DNA of 64,000 bases from positions 1,364,001-1,428,000 of the forward strand of contig NZ_CDGG01000001.1 of the NCBI RefSeq assembly GCF_000821065.1. Reading direction: 5' to 3'. This DNA comes from Oceanobacillus oncorhynchi. Its GTDB lineage: Bacteria > Bacillota > Bacilli > Bacillales > Amphibacillaceae. This document shows, in pieces, positions 16,327 to 57,678 of the stretch (position 1 is its first letter; each line of letters starts with the position of its first letter). The notes under the pieces were generated by a model. The model saw only the letters and a program-made list of their open reading frames with translations, searched no databases and was not told where the DNA came from. The translations under genes were made by a program, and so were the position numbers.

Positions 16327-16353
16327 ATTAAAAATTACTTCTTTGCCTAAACT
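16324..16353 (+). promoter_or_regulatory. possible orphaned promoter, inferred former sodC promoter
   Basis: TTGATT (16324-16329), 18-nt spacer and TAAACT (16348-16353), nine bases before the left end of the first IS. If the IS-bounded segment is flipped back, this element falls directly upstream of the sodC ribosome site. Now it points into the transposase gene. Inference from the exchanged IS flanks. Confidence 0.35.
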
Positions 16354-16387
16354 ATAAAAAAAGGCTCTATACTGAATGTGGTGGTGT

Positions 16388-16417
16388 CCTCCGTTCCATC
16401 GCCAGATGGAACGGAGG
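16388..16417. repeat. 13-bp perfect hairpin inside the IS leader
   Basis: CCTCCGTTCCATC / GATGGAACGGAGG with a 4-nt loop, 25 bp inside the IS. A second stem, CTTTTCCTCTC (16433-16443) with GAGAGGAAAAG (16480-16490), pairs with the transposase ribosome site. Both recur in copy 2. Confidence 0.8.
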
Positions 16418-16491
16418 CAAAAAAATACACTCCTTTTCCTCTCTCTGATAACCTTGAGTTGTCGAGACAAAAGGAATGGGAGAGGAAAAGA

Positions 16492-17697
16492 GTGCAACAT
16501 CATTTTATCACAGAGTTATTAGGAATTAAAGATACACATGTAGATGTGTGGGATATCAGAGAAGAAGAAAGTTATTTGATTGCGGAATTATTCACGAAAC
16601 AGCGTATGCAGAAATGTCCTTGTTGCGGGAAAAGAACGAAACGGATACACAGTTACCGCTGGCAAAGCATCCAAGGACCAGTGTTAACGACAAAAGAAGT
16701 TCATATATCTCTGCGAAAGAGACGTTATATTTGTATGTCGTGTCACCACACATTTTATGAGCGTCTCCAAATGATCCATCGGTATCAACGGTGTACGGCG
16801 AGTGTGCAAACGGCAGCGATGATGCATGCCGCTGTAAGTTCCTTTCGTACAGCGGCGCTGGTAACGGGAGTAACAGTGAATCGTGTGTTACGGTGGTTTG
16901 ATCAGAAGGAACTGCCCACCAGCAAAGTGTTACCGCGAGTCATTGCGATCGATGAGTTTAAAGGCGACGCAGATGGAGAGAGGTTTCAATTGAATGTGGT
17001 CGATGTGGAGAACCGAAGAATTATCGATATCTTGCCAGATCGAAAAGTGGAGACCATTGAAGCGTACTTAAATTCCTGCGATACAGGTAAAGTGGAAATG
17101 GTAGTAATGGATTTATCTCAAGCGTTTAAACAAGCGATTCGAAAAGCGCTGGGAAACCCATTGATTATCGCTGACCGTTTTCACTTTATGCGTCAGGCCT
17201 ACTGGGCTTTGGATGAGGTCCGCCGTGAAGTTCAAAAGCAATTGCCCAAGAAAGATCGAATTCGAATGAAACGCTCCAAAAAACTTCTGTGGAAATCATG
17301 GACAACCTGTTCGGATGATCAGAAGAAGAAAGTCCAGGAATTATTAAAGATAGATCTCCGTTTAAAGGAAGCCTATGATTTAAAGCATGAACTGGATACG
17401 TGGTTTAAGGAAAGTGATGCGCACAATGCCACAGCGGGATTAGAAGCATGTCTGGAAAAGTTGAATGCATCCAGATTAGAAGGATTTCATCGTGTCGCAC
17501 GTACATTTAAAAGATGGCAACAAGAAATTCTGCATTCTTTTATGTATCCTTTTAATAATGGCTACATAGAAGGCGTTAATAATACGATTAAAGTATTAAA
17601 AAGATTATCTTATGGAATTAAACAGTTTGATCGAATGAGAAAGAAAATTCTATGGCAACAAGAGGTAAAGCTTGTGTTAAAGCAAGCTTATAAATAA
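16492..17697 (+). CDS. ISL3-family transposase (copy 1)
   Basis: DDE transposase of the ISL3 family. The N-terminal zinc ribbon has CPCCGKRT and CMSCHHTF, followed by a helix-turn-helix. Catalytic-core landmarks are VIAIDEFKGD (first Asp), VVMDLSQAFK and IIADRFHFMRQ (second Asp region) and GYIEGVNNTIKVLKR (Glu). The start is taken as GTG at 16492, directly after GGGAGAGGAAAAG. The frame stays open upstream to 16378 but runs through the leader hairpin. Intact, so likely functional. Confidence 0.92.
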   Translation: MQHHFITELLGIKDTHVDVWDIREEESYLIAELFTKQRMQKCPCCGKRTKRIHSYRWQSIQGPVLTTKEVHISLRKRRYICMSCHHTFYERLQMIHRYQRCTASVQTAAMMHAAVSSFRTAALVTGVTVNRVLRWFDQKELPTSKVLPRVIAIDEFKGDADGERFQLNVVDVENRRIIDILPDRKVETIEAYLNSCDTGKVEMVVMDLSQAFKQAIRKALGNPLIIADRFHFMRQAYWALDEVRREVQKQLPKKDRIRMKRSKKLLWKSWTTCSDDQKKKVQELLKIDLRLKEAYDLKHELDTWFKESDAHNATAGLEACLEKLNASRLEGFHRVARTFKRWQQEILHSFMYPFNNGYIEGVNNTIKVLKRLSYGIKQFDRMRKKILWQQEVKLVLKQAYK

Positions 17698-17781
17698 AGA
17701 GGTGGAGGAATGATATTCCACCACCACATTTGACATAGAACCGTTTCTGGTCAGCTTTCTATCTTTCTGAGGAATCTTTGT

Positions 17782-17787
17782 TATAAT
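17782..17787 (+). promoter_or_regulatory. -10 element of the aminotransferase gene
   Basis: TATAAT, about 35 nt before the start codon; no good -35. It lies within the inverted segment, so this gene kept its -10. Confidence 0.45.
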
Positions 17788-17822
17788 AGAAAAATGAAAT
17801 CATGTAAGGAGGCAAACGAAGA

Positions 17823-19010
17823 ATGAGTATTTTTGAAGAGGTACATGACCGTAAGCAAACCAAATCAATGAAATGGGATATGCTTCAAAAAAGATTCCAG
17901 TCGGAAGATGTTATCCCAATGTGGGTAGCAGATATGGACTTTAAAGCCCCGGAAGCTGTGAATCAGGCGCTTATTAAACGTGCAGAGCACGGAATTTACG
18001 GATATACAGTAATCGATGAAGATGTCACATCTTCTATTACAGATTGGGTTAAAAACCGGCACGGATGGGATATCCAAGCGGACTCGCTTAACTACAGTCC
18101 TGGCGTGATCAATACGCTACATATGGCATTGCAGGCATTCACTGAACCCGGCGATAAGATTATGATTCAAACACCTGTGTACACACCCTTTTATAATATT
18201 ATAAAGGTGTTGGACCGTGAGGTTGTAAAGAATCCATTAATTCAACAAGATGACTATTACACCATAGATTTTGAGGATATGGAAAAGAAACTAGCAAGCG
18301 GTGTGAAGGCATTTATTTTATGTTCACCTCATAATCCGGTAGGGCGTGTCTGGACAGAGGAAGAGCTTCGAAAAATGGCAGAGCTGTGTTTACAATATGA
18401 TGCGATGATTTTCTCTGATGAAATTCATGCTGATTTAGTTTTCAAAGGACATAAACATCTGCCAATTGCCAGTTTATCAGAAGAAATTGCTGATAAAACC
18501 ATTACTTGCATGGCTCCCTCTAAAACTTTTAATTTAGCAGGCTTGCAAGCTTCCTATGCCGTGACGCCAAACAAGCAAAACAAACAAAAATTAGAAAAAG
18601 CATTTCTCCGTCAAGGTTTAAATAACTCTTTAAACGGAATGGCTATTACAGCTATGGAAGCAGCCTACCGTCATGGCGGGCCTTGGCTGGAAGAACTGCT
18701 CGAAGTTGTTGAAAGCCATACAGCATATATTAAAGAAATGTTTGCCGCTCATGCACCTGAACTAAAAGTAATCAAGTCGGAAGGAACCTACCTTGTCTGG
18801 GTAGATTGCTCCCAGCTGAATATGGATAAAAAAGAATTAAACCGATTCATGATTGATAAAGGACGAGTCGGCTTAAATCCTGGTCAGGACTATGGAGATG
18901 AAGGGGACGCTTTTATGCGTATTAATGTCGCATGCCCCCGGGCAACCATTGAAGAAGGCGTACAACGAATTATTCATGCAGTCGAGGCATGGAGAGCATC
19001 TACTAATTAA
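17823..19010 (+). CDS. patB: PatB/MalY-type aminotransferase, C-S lyase
   Basis: A 395-residue fold-type I PLP enzyme of the MalY/PatB group. Members are usually cystathionine beta-lyases or aminotransferases. Features: MWVADMDFKAP near the start, LCSPHNPVGRVW, FSDEIHADLVF, and the PLP lysine in APSKTFNLAGLQ. AGGAGG lies 9 nt ahead of the ATG. It sits with sodC in the 2-kb segment between two inverted IS copies. The substrate (cystathionine, cysteine, or LL-DAP/aromatic amino acids) cannot be decided from sequence. Confidence 0.88.
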   Translation: MSIFEEVHDRKQTKSMKWDMLQKRFQSEDVIPMWVADMDFKAPEAVNQALIKRAEHGIYGYTVIDEDVTSSITDWVKNRHGWDIQADSLNYSPGVINTLHMALQAFTEPGDKIMIQTPVYTPFYNIIKVLDREVVKNPLIQQDDYYTIDFEDMEKKLASGVKAFILCSPHNPVGRVWTEEELRKMAELCLQYDAMIFSDEIHADLVFKGHKHLPIASLSEEIADKTITCMAPSKTFNLAGLQASYAVTPNKQNKQKLEKAFLRQGLNNSLNGMAITAMEAAYRHGGPWLEELLEVVESHTAYIKEMFAAHAPELKVIKSEGTYLVWVDCSQLNMDKKELNRFMIDKGRVGLNPGQDYGDEGDAFMRINVACPRATIEEGVQRIIHAVEAWRASTN

Positions 19011-19024
19011 TTAGAAAAGAGTAA

Positions 19025-19056
19025 AAACTGCATTCATCCTTGGGAGAATGCAGTTT
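19025..19056. terminator. bidirectional terminator
   Basis: Stem AAACTGCATTC / GAATGCAGTTT with a 10-nt loop, between convergent patB and sodC. Confidence 0.85.
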
Positions 19057-19111
19057 CTATTATCATGAAATCAGACATTATTATATTTCACAGCCAAATG
19101 CAATTACATCT

Positions 19112-19720
19112 TTAGCCGTTTTCTTCGTTTTTCTGTTTATCATTATTTTCCGTCGGATCAGTCGGTGCGTCCTGCTCTTCCCCGCTTTGAGAATCTCCGC
19201 TGATTACTCCGCAAACGATACGGTCTCCTGAATTACCTGCCGGCTGGCTCATCCCATCATCTACCCCATCATGAATAATTAAAGAAGTTCCGTTATCTGC
19301 CGTCAGGCTATTTTTTCCTTTTTTTAATGTTGCCTCATTAATAATCAGCTCTTCTTGAACAGCCCCGTCCGCATCCGCTTCAATATTCGGGAGATCACCG
19401 ACGTGCGGTCCATCTGTTTGCATCAGACCATGGTCTTTCCCATCCGGGTTAAAATGATTTCCGCTGGAAGAAAAATCAGGCCCCTCACATTTTCCGTATT
19501 CATGAACATGTATTGCATGAAAACCAGGACTTAAACCTTCTACTTCCACATTTACAGAAACACCGCCATCGGTTTCATTTAATCTGGCTGTTCCTACACG
19601 ATCTCCATCCGCATTATACATCTCCAGCGTTTCTGAGTTTTCATGCGGCAGCAAGCATCCTGATAAAAAAAATAACATCATTAGAGAGAGCATCCATAAC
19701 TTTTTATTCCGTCGTCGCAT
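19112..19720 (-). CDS. sodC: Cu/Zn superoxide dismutase, lipoprotein
   Basis: A 202-residue extracytoplasmic superoxide dismutase. Lipobox LSGC (Cys22) implies anchoring to the outer membrane face. All metal ligands are visible: His71 and His73 (HVH), bridging His89, His97, His106 and Asp109 (PHVGDL), and His150 (IIHDG). Cys78 and Cys170 make the usual disulfide, and Arg167 is present. A long acidic, low-complexity C-terminal tail follows. AAAGGAG precedes the ATG, but only 25 bp separate the start from the end of IS copy 2, so its native promoter appears to have been removed. Confidence 0.92.
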   Translation of the reverse strand: MRRRNKKLWMLSLMMLFFLSGCLLPHENSETLEMYNADGDRVGTARLNETDGGVSVNVEVEGLSPGFHAIHVHEYGKCEGPDFSSSGNHFNPDGKDHGLMQTDGPHVGDLPNIEADADGAVQEELIINEATLKKGKNSLTADNGTSLIIHDGVDDGMSQPAGNSGDRIVCGVISGDSQSGEEQDAPTDPTENNDKQKNEENG

Positions 19721-19745
19721 CGATAAGCTCCTTTACCTTTTTTTA

Positions 19746-21125
19746 GGTTCTATGTCAAATGTGGTGGTGGAATATCATTCCTCCACCTCTTTATTTATAA
19801 GCTTGCTTTAACACAAGCTTTACCTCTTGTTGCCATAGAATTTTCTTTCTCATTCGATCAAACTGTTTAATTCCATAAGATAATCTTTTTAATACTTTAA
19901 TCGTATTATTAACGCCTTCTATGTAGCCATTATTAAAAGGATACATAAAAGAATGCAGAATTTCTTGTTGCCATCTTTTAAATGTACGTGCGACACGATG
20001 AAATCCTTCTAATCTGGATGCATTCAACTTTTCCAGACATGCTTCTAATCCCGCTGTGGCATTGTGCGCATCACTTTCCTTAAACCACGTATCCAGTTCA
20101 TGCTTTAAATCATAGGCTTCCTTTAAACGGAGATCTATCTTTAATAATTCCTGGACTTTCTTCTTCTGATCATCCGAACAGGTTGTCCATGATTTCCACA
20201 GAAGTTTTTTGGAGCGTTTCATTCGAATTCGATCTTTCTTGGGCAATTGCTTTTGAACTTCACGGCGGACCTCATCCAAAGCCCAGTAGGCCTGACGCAT
20301 AAAGTGAAAACGGTCAGCGATAATCAATGGGTTTCCCAGCGCTTTTCGAATCGCTTGTTTAAACGCTTGAGATAAATCCATTACTACCATTTCCACTTTA
20401 CCTGTATCGCAGGAATTTAAGTACGCTTCAATGGTCTCCACTTTTCGATCTGGCAAGATATCGATAATTCTTCGGTTCTCCACATCGACCACATTCAATT
20501 GAAACCTCTCTCCATCTGCGTCGCCTTTAAACTCATCGATCGCAATGACTCGCGGTAACACTTTGCTGGTGGGCAGTTCCTTCTGATCAAACCACCGTAA
20601 CACACGATTCACTGTTACTCCCGTTACCAGCGCCGCTGTACGAAAGGAACTTACAGCGGCATGCATCATCGCTGCCGTTTGCACACTCGCCGTACACCGT
20701 TGATACCGATGGATCATTTGGAGACGCTCATAAAATGTGTGGTGACACGACATACAAATATAACGTCTCTTTCGCAGAGATATATGAACTTCTTTTGTCG
20801 TTAACACTGGTCCTTGGATGCTTTGCCAGCGGTAACTGTGTATCCGTTTCGTTCTTTTCCCGCAACAAGGACATTTCTGCATACGCTGTTTCGTGAATAA
20901 TTCCGCAATCAAATAACTTTCTTCTTCTCTGATATCCCACACATCTACATGTGTATCTTTAATTCCTAATAACTCTGTGATAAAATGATGTTGCACTCTT
21001 TTCCTCTCCCATTCCTTTTGTCTCGACAACTCAAGGTTATCAGAGAGAGGAAAAGGAGTGTATTTTTTTGCCTCCGTTCCATCTGGCGATGGAACGGAGG
21101 ACACCACCACATTCAGTATAGAGCC
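19746..21125 (-). mobile_element. ISL3-family insertion sequence, copy 2 (inverted)
   Basis: A 1380-bp copy of the element at 16363-17742, in opposite orientation and encoding an identical transposase. Flanks: TTTTTTTA on the left (complement of copy 1's left flank) and CCAGAAAC on the right (complement of copy 1's right flank). Each 8-bp target duplication is thus split between the two copies. Confidence 0.95.
19791..20996 (-). CDS. ISL3-family transposase (copy 2)
   Basis: Residue-for-residue the same protein as copy 1, in inverted orientation: zinc ribbon CPCCGKRT, DDE core with VIAIDEFKGD and GYIEGVNNTIK. The same GTG start is assumed (20996), with the upstream open frame continuing to 21110. 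Identity of the two copies indicates recent duplication. Confidence 0.92.
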   Translation of the reverse strand: MQHHFITELLGIKDTHVDVWDIREEESYLIAELFTKQRMQKCPCCGKRTKRIHSYRWQSIQGPVLTTKEVHISLRKRRYICMSCHHTFYERLQMIHRYQRCTASVQTAAMMHAAVSSFRTAALVTGVTVNRVLRWFDQKELPTSKVLPRVIAIDEFKGDADGERFQLNVVDVENRRIIDILPDRKVETIEAYLNSCDTGKVEMVVMDLSQAFKQAIRKALGNPLIIADRFHFMRQAYWALDEVRREVQKQLPKKDRIRMKRSKKLLWKSWTTCSDDQKKKVQELLKIDLRLKEAYDLKHELDTWFKESDAHNATAGLEACLEKLNASRLEGFHRVARTFKRWQQEILHSFMYPFNNGYIEGVNNTIKVLKRLSYGIKQFDRMRKKILWQQEVKLVLKQAYK

Positions 21126-21320
21126 CCAGAAACTTGCAGTTATTCATTTTAGGACAAAAAAAAGCAAAGCGTGAATACGCTCTGCCTACAGGGGGAATAC
21201 GAGAAAGCCTTACAATTATAGTAATACCCGCTGTTAATAAAAATAAACCAAAAACTTTTAAAAAAGTTTATTAAATTTATTTTTATTAAAGATTGCTTAT
21301 TTAACGGTGCTCACAAATGC

Positions 21321-52257: not shown

Positions 52258-53829
<1,572 letters not shown>

Positions 53830-53895
53830 ATAACGGAATTCGTACGTGGTTGTTTGGTTCAGTTTTGAGAGAGCAATTCTCTATCATATTTAGAT

Positions 53896-53972
<77 letters not shown>

Positions 53973-53992
53973 TCTAATTATATTATATTTAT

Positions 53993-54065
53993 GGGGCCTT
54001 AGCTCAGCTGGGAGAGCGCCTGCCTTGCACGCAGGAGGTCAGCGGTTCGATCCCGCTAGGCTCCA
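53993..54065 (+). tRNA. tRNA-Ala (TGC)
   Basis: A 73-nt tRNA with anticodon TGC in CTTGCAC and T-arm GGTTCGATCCC. The G3-U70 identity pair of alanine tRNA is present. After the discriminator A comes TTTTT, so the CCA end is not encoded, unlike the neighbouring tRNA-Ile. Confidence 0.95.
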
Positions 54066-54190
54066 TTTTTGTACCTTGAAAACTAAATAAGAGTAACAAC
54101 GACATCAAACTTTAAAAATAAGGCAAAAAAGCTATTGATATAGCGACACAACTGATTACATTCTGTAATCAGCCATCTTATTCAAAAACT

Positions 54191-57113
<2,923 letters not shown>

Positions 57114-57216
57114 AGTTTTTTCATGTCACGTTACTCTTATTTAGTTTTCAGGGTGCAAATTCTTGAAAAAAAGTGTTGCATTTTCAGGAAACATCTTCAA
57201 GTTACATATTTTATTG

Positions 57217-57332
57217 TCTGGTGGCGAGAGCGAAGAGGTCACACCTGTTCCCATGCCGAACACAGAAGTTAAGTTCTTCAGCGCCAATGGTAGTTGGGGG
57301 CTTCCCCCTGCGAGAGTAGGACGTTGCCAGGC
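57217..57332 (+). rRNA. 5S ribosomal RNA
   Basis: TCTGGTGGCGAGAGCGAAGA to GGACGTTGCCAGGC, 116 nt, with complementary ends (TGGTGGCG / CGTTGCCA). Last gene of the rrn operon. Confidence 0.96.
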
Positions 57333-57400: not shown

Positions 57401-57678
57401 TATGTCATCTGAATCTGTTCATAGTAGGTACGATGACAAAATATACAAATGTTACGTTTTTTCCACCATAAAATAGGATTTATTGTCGTAAAGGCGGATC
57501 CTTGAATGAATGCTTTGCCAGTGATAGCCATCCATGGGTTTGGTTTTTCCTCGACAAAATAGATATTTTTACATACGCCGTTTTGTGAATAACCCCGCAA
57601 CGAAATGACTTTCTTCTCTGATTCCCTGCGTTTTCGCTTCACATAGACACCTTTTATTCCTAAATAACACCGTGGCAA
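57401..57678 (-). pseudogene. ISL3 transposase fragment
   Basis: The minus-strand frame reads YLGIKGVYV (intact: LLGIKDTHV), then IQGSAFTT (IQGPVLTT), KRNICIFCHRTYYEQIQM (RRYICMSCHHTFYERLQM). The first CXXC of the zinc ribbon is lost and the frame stops after the second pair. Only the N-terminal third is left, with many substitutions, so this is an old insertion. Confidence 0.8.

Follow-up and report, generated by a model that had tools for sequence, protein, structure and literature searches.

Inversion by homologous recombination between oppositely oriented copies of an insertion sequence (IS) is a general process in bacteria. Among IS families, ISL3 is listed as one of those that move by copy-out-paste-in transposition, in the available portion of one source (PMC9333248), and the available portion of another describes circular forms and AT-rich 8-bp target duplications for the ISL3-like fosB transposon (PMC5559704). 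Here we analyse a locus of Oceanobacillus oncorhynchi at which two identical copies of an ISL3-family element enclose a 2003-bp segment carrying patB and sodC, and at which comparison with relatives supports an inversion of that segment. The locus lies in a stretch of 64,000 nucleotides (the window; contig NZ_CDGG01000001.1, positions 1,364,001 to 1,428,000, forward strand) of a genome assembled as a single contig of 4,608,004 bases. Coordinates are those of the window unless they carry the prefix G000:C1.

Evidence for inversion of the patB-sodC segment

The window reads HPr> orf> IS> patB> <sodC <IS <pgi from left to right, with patB and sodC convergent between both IS copies. Copy 1 (16363..17742, + strand) and copy 2 (19746..21125, - strand), which proved identical on direct comparison, form arms of 1380 nt each that are 100% complementary and stand 2003 nt apart, in opposite orientation around the segment 17743..19745. 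Their flanks are crossed: copy 1 lies between TAAAAAAA (16355..16362) and GTTTCTGG (17743..17750), and copy 2 between TTTTTTTA (19738..19745) and CCAGAAAC (21126..21133), all read on the + strand. TAAAAAAA and TTTTTTTA are reverse complements of one another, as are GTTTCTGG and CCAGAAAC, as expected if each pair were the two halves of one target duplication (A and B, respectively) and the halves inside the segment read as they do owing to its inversion. This much had been described, exactly, in an earlier note on this DNA. By the 8-mer composition of the window, two random 8-mers would be reverse complements of each other with a probability of 3.0e-5, and both crosswise matches, if independent, would arise with one of about 9e-10; we therefore rejected a chance match. 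The TAAAAAAA half taken alone is weak evidence, because the octamer occurs 27 times in the window (both strands) and the TAAAAAAA/TTTTTTTA octamer is also the duplication of another copy of this IS (L006, G000:C1:873773-875152), so the case rests on the other half and on the relatives. Nor do crossed flanks alone prove an inversion, because a contig piece placed backwards yields identical letters.

Gene neighbourhoods were compared in 32 of the 57 other genomes, the remaining 25 all lying outside the genus. The order deoD< HPr> orf> sodC> <patB <pgi <S1 was found at 29/29 loci of the same genus or family (27/27 other genus members and two family members), and a further record (L122) shows it as well. 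At some of the 29 loci the genes are spaced further apart by additional sequence (in L090, L091 and L098 some 4.4 kb of it separates sodC from patB), with order and strands unchanged. The remaining three of the 32 loci (L111-L113), from other genera, are rearranged on the pgi side; in L112 and L113 sodC still stands beside orf, as in the ancestral order, and the neighbourhood of L111 gave no HPr or orf match. Relatives lacking the IS and carrying the segment in the present orientation, which the earlier note had named as the counter-evidence to look for, were seen at 0/29 loci.

At the level of the junctions, we flipped 17743-19745, removed each IS together with one 8-mer, and aligned the result to six close relatives. 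The flipped, IS-free version aligned in one piece across both junctions in 6/6, with 78-84% identity over the left region (220 bp) and 84-85% over the right (260 bp). In contrast, the unflipped version fell into two pieces on opposite strands at both junctions in all six. In one relative (L087) the bases on either side of a single TAAAAAAA are exactly those of the left empty site. The contiguity of the flipped version indicates that these six relatives lack both IS copies here and carry the segment in the opposite direction, and both empty sites are consistent with the proposal that flipping the segment restores two normal 8-bp duplications. Identical inverted copies with crossed duplications on the one hand, and IS-free relatives with the other orientation on the other, are what an IS-bounded inversion is expected to show, and such comparisons support the view that the patB-sodC segment is inverted in this genome. 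The earlier note had gone further and called the inversion proven by its exchanged flanks. The inversion stands with the support of the relatives, but proof is too strong a word, since identical flanks would follow from a mis-oriented contig, and repeats of about 5 kb are wrongly joined in this assembly (below).

The two genes of the segment are readily assigned. The product of patB (17823..19010, + strand; in the ancestral order on the - strand, towards pgi) matches the PatB-family C-S lyases, pyridoxal phosphate (PLP) enzymes, with 507.5 bits to TIGR04350 (cut-off 340). That of sodC (19112..19720, - strand; in the ancestral order on the + strand, towards HPr-orf) is a Cu/Zn superoxide dismutase by PF00080 (E 3.9e-40), with an N-terminus that looks lipoprotein-like by eye. 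The patB query matched 58/58 genomes, our own included, although in G036, G050 and G057 the best match was a distant aminotransferase only (E 1e-26 to 1e-30); the sodC query matched 52/58, some weakly. The near relatives in the sodC search were all Oceanobacillus (O. jeddahense, O. neutriphilus, two records of O. sojae and two more strains), and the seventh match was distant and cyanobacterial.

The element and its other copies

The transposase frame of copy 1 spans 16378-17697, with a probable start at GTG 16492 (by eye). It matches PF01610 (DDE_Tnp_ISL3; E 4.4e-66), PF14690 (1.5e-12), PF13542 (2.4e-6, at 27.4 bits exactly its cut-off) and NCBIfam NF033550 (305.4 bits, cut-off 180; E 5.3e-91), so that by profile matches the element has the DDE transposase with zinc ribbon and helix-turn-helix that characterizes the ISL3 family. 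Its terminal inverted repeats are imperfect, as in that family, the ends matching at 19 of the first 24 positions. The genome holds six full copies, all 100% identical to the query. The four outside the window pair each have a perfect 8-bp duplication (GTAAACAG, TAATTAAA, GTTTTATA and TTTTTTTA), the size typical of ISL3, and uncrossing the window pair adds two more. The same octamer, TAAAAAAA/TTTTTTTA, was used by 2/6 insertions, which suggests that the element prefers runs of A/T.

A plasmid collection searched for this IS gave no match. When the genus was searched, with at most the best 14 candidates scored per genome, the nearest near-full-length copies among the matches listed were 66% identical (G010), and fragments of 89-97% identity were listed in G008, G019 and G025. 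Within the genome itself, IS-like fragments (95%, 70% and short pieces) lie at most about 350 bases from three of the five 5S rRNA genes (L007, G000:C1:1569782-1569978; window 57434-57626; G000:C1:4607494-4607527). Within the left end of the element (16363-16520, + strand), the transposase leader is predicted to form two strong hairpins (-65.9 kcal/mol, z -6.83), the second of which covers the likely Shine-Dalgarno sequence of GTG 16492. They look like the hairpins that, in other IS, protect against read-in transcription.

How the inversion may have arisen

On balance we lean towards a route in which the element inserted twice and the inverted IS copies then underwent homologous recombination. 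It would have entered two sites some 2 kb from each other, in opposite orientations, the one immediately upstream of sodC and the other upstream of patB, each time producing a normal 8-bp duplication. Homologous recombination, presumably by RecA, between the identical 1380-bp inverted copies would then have turned the patB-sodC segment around, so that the two halves of each duplication ended up at different IS copies. The order of events, with both insertions before the flip, and the choice of recombination over one intramolecular transposition are what we infer and not what the letters themselves record. We prefer this route because the other copies of the element (4/4) look like independent, normal insertions and because repeats of 1.4 kb recombine readily: identical inverted repeats of that length at a distance of 2 kb offer the recombination machinery a good substrate. 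Copy-out-paste-in elements, moreover, ordinarily add independent new copies, and split flanks were seen at 0/4 of the other copies of this IS, although they would be expected if inversion-making transposition were its usual habit.

Several points weigh against this preference. Two independent insertions at most 2 kb apart are unlikely in themselves, with about 0.013 expected pairs for six copies in 4.6 Mb (hand arithmetic). The final sequence is the same under the recombination route and the transposition route, and four other copies are a small sample on which to choose between them. The assembly, too, is faulty at rRNA repeats.

The best-surviving alternative is a single intramolecular transposition, in which one IS (or a tandem IS dimer) attacked another site of its own chromosome in the orientation that yields an inversion. 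Such an event would invert the segment in the same step as it made the second copy, giving each copy one old and one new flank, and needs no coincidence of two independent nearby insertions; because that coincidence is unlikely, we keep this route as a serious possibility, though we would not expect it to be the true one. Precedent exists in other families: IS30, another element with the copy-out-paste-in mode that is listed for ISL3, makes inversions from joined-end intermediates (PMC9333248, available portion), and the flank pattern given for intramolecular transposition in the available portion of an IS6 review (PMC7986276) is the pattern observed here. However, the matched duplications of the other copies (4/4) suggest that most moves of this IS are of another kind, and the single event still requires a target within 2 kb, whether by chance or by local preference. 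An adjacent inversion by an ISL3 element is reported neither in the available portions of PMC10266640, PMC5559704, PMC7986276 and PMC9333248 nor among the literature matches listed. Nor is the present case described among the titles and abstract beginnings listed for ISL3 mechanism, IS inversions with such flanks and Oceanobacillus. If the single-event route were true, it would mean that natural adjacent inversions can be produced by an ISL3 element, which would here have copied itself and inverted the neighbouring 2 kb.

Reliability of the assembly

Another reading places the fault in the assembly: both IS copies would be real and have normal duplications, and the unique 2-kb piece would have been placed backwards between the identical inverted repeats. 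A piece so placed would give exactly the crossed flanks observed, and the single-contig assembly does go wrong at long (~5-kb) ribosomal RNA (rRNA) repeats. With at most the best 20 candidates scored per genome, this genome showed a single full 16S gene, in the window (operon 52258-57332), and it has five 5S loci; the same search gave 6, 9, 7 and 6 16S genes in four other genomes of the genus and 0 in a fifth (G027). At four further loci inside the contig (around G000:C1 1569171-1569556, 1625776-1625993, 2475733-2476049 and 3106422-3106802) an rRNA leader is joined directly to the end of 23S, to 5S or to tRNAs, with no 16S or 23S between. The two ends of the contig fit together likewise, leader next to 5S (these loci are L124-L129), and no runs of N occur in the seven rRNA-region stretches checked. 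Judging from these junctions, five rRNA loci were probably collapsed by an assembly fault. By the same evidence the assembly is unreliable at long repeats, and for this reason the inversion is not yet proven. G027, likewise a single contig of the genus, has no 16S gene among the 20 candidates scored yet does have 5S genes, and possibly carries the same kind of fault.

Repeats of IS length, however, appear to have been handled better. Matching flanks were found in 13/14 judgeable copies of four IS types (1.4-1.7 kb): 4/4 of the other copies of the present IS, 3/3 of a 1.53-kb IS (6 bp), 3/3 of a 1.57-kb IS by eye (13-15 shared bases; a fixed-offset program count gave 1/3) and, exactly, 3/4 of a 1.68-kb IS (4 bp). 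No duplication common to the whole group was found for 13 copies in five groups (L131/L132, L134/L135, L136-L139, L140-L142 and L156/L157). Six copies, in the groups L149-L151 and L159/L161/L162, had unclear ends and were left out of the flank count; with the preceding 13 they make 19 copies that could not be judged and could hide mis-joins. L133, L158, L160 and L163 stood ungrouped in the comparison. The orientation of patB-sodC depends on links across 1.38 kb only, and because of this we consider an artefact improbable. A reference-guided ordering, in addition, would presumably have yielded the ancestral order.

Composite transposon, switch and gene expression

It is very improbable that the locus represents a composite (IS-flanked) transposon, or else an invertible switch that is under selection and governs patB or sodC, even though two inverted IS copies do flank two convergent genes and inversion between them is possible in principle. 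The segment did not arrive as a unit, because it lies at the same chromosomal place in 29/29 near loci and the outer flanks, TAAAAAAA and CCAGAAAC, differ and are not duplications of each other; a composite transposon, which would show one duplication around the whole unit and be absent from relatives at this place, was rejected accordingly. A regulatory switch was rejected as unlikely. In either orientation the right end of the IS faces both patB and sodC, and the adjoining 1380 bp are unchanged, the copies being identical, so that a flip changes no nearby promoter. The flip could be reversible and should be close to neutral for the promoters of both genes, as far as their surroundings indicate, and the reversible switch that the earlier note had wished to see looked for finds no support here.

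The IS insertions, unlike the flip, might alter expression: sodC starts 25 bp downstream of the IS edge, which separates the gene from an upstream region conserved in close relatives. A TATAAT seen by eye upstream of patB, inside the segment, is absent from the promoter scan list. A TTGACA in the right terminal repeat of the IS (by eye) is likewise unlisted by the consensus scan, and we do not claim a hybrid sodC promoter from it.

Two further observations concern the RNA around these insertions. In the sodC leader (window 16341-16362 + 19721-19745) a possible hairpin, CTTTG...CAAAG, lies over the Shine-Dalgarno sequence in seven close relatives, on our reading of their predicted folds, and the IS insertion splits it in its loop; the motif was not evident in more distant sodC leaders. 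On the other side, 31 bp beyond IS copy 2, window 21157-21214 (- strand) gives a sub-threshold match to the Bacillus small RNA (sRNA) family ncr1241 (40.6 bits, gathering score 60, E 1.3e-5) and is well conserved in six close relatives. The name ncr1241 does not occur among the literature matches listed for it together with two other sRNAs.

Comparison with known systems

Taken as a whole, the locus looks like a real but commonplace IS-mediated rearrangement, and no view of IS biology is changed by it unless the single-event route holds. Its value is rather that of a clear example, in which relatives still show both empty sites, of identical inverted IS copies rearranging a small chromosomal segment, and it illustrates that a true inversion and a backwards-placed contig cannot be told apart by crossed target duplications alone.

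The element resembles the ISL3 family and the ISL3-like fosB transposon (PMC5559704, available portion) in its transposase domains, its 8-bp duplication, its mostly AT-rich targets and its imperfect terminal repeats. The arrangement is like that left by intramolecular replicative inversion by IS6/IS26, in which each inverted copy has one old and one target flank (PMC7986276, available portion). It differs from that system in IS family, ISL3 being listed as copy-out-paste-in (PMC9333248, available portion). Compared with IS-recombination inversions in general, the present one is small (2 kb), lies in an Oceanobacillus and is known from assembled sequence alone. It shares with homologous-recombination inversions between inverted IS copies the identical copies that bound the segment, the crossed duplications, and the opposite orientation in relatives free of the IS.

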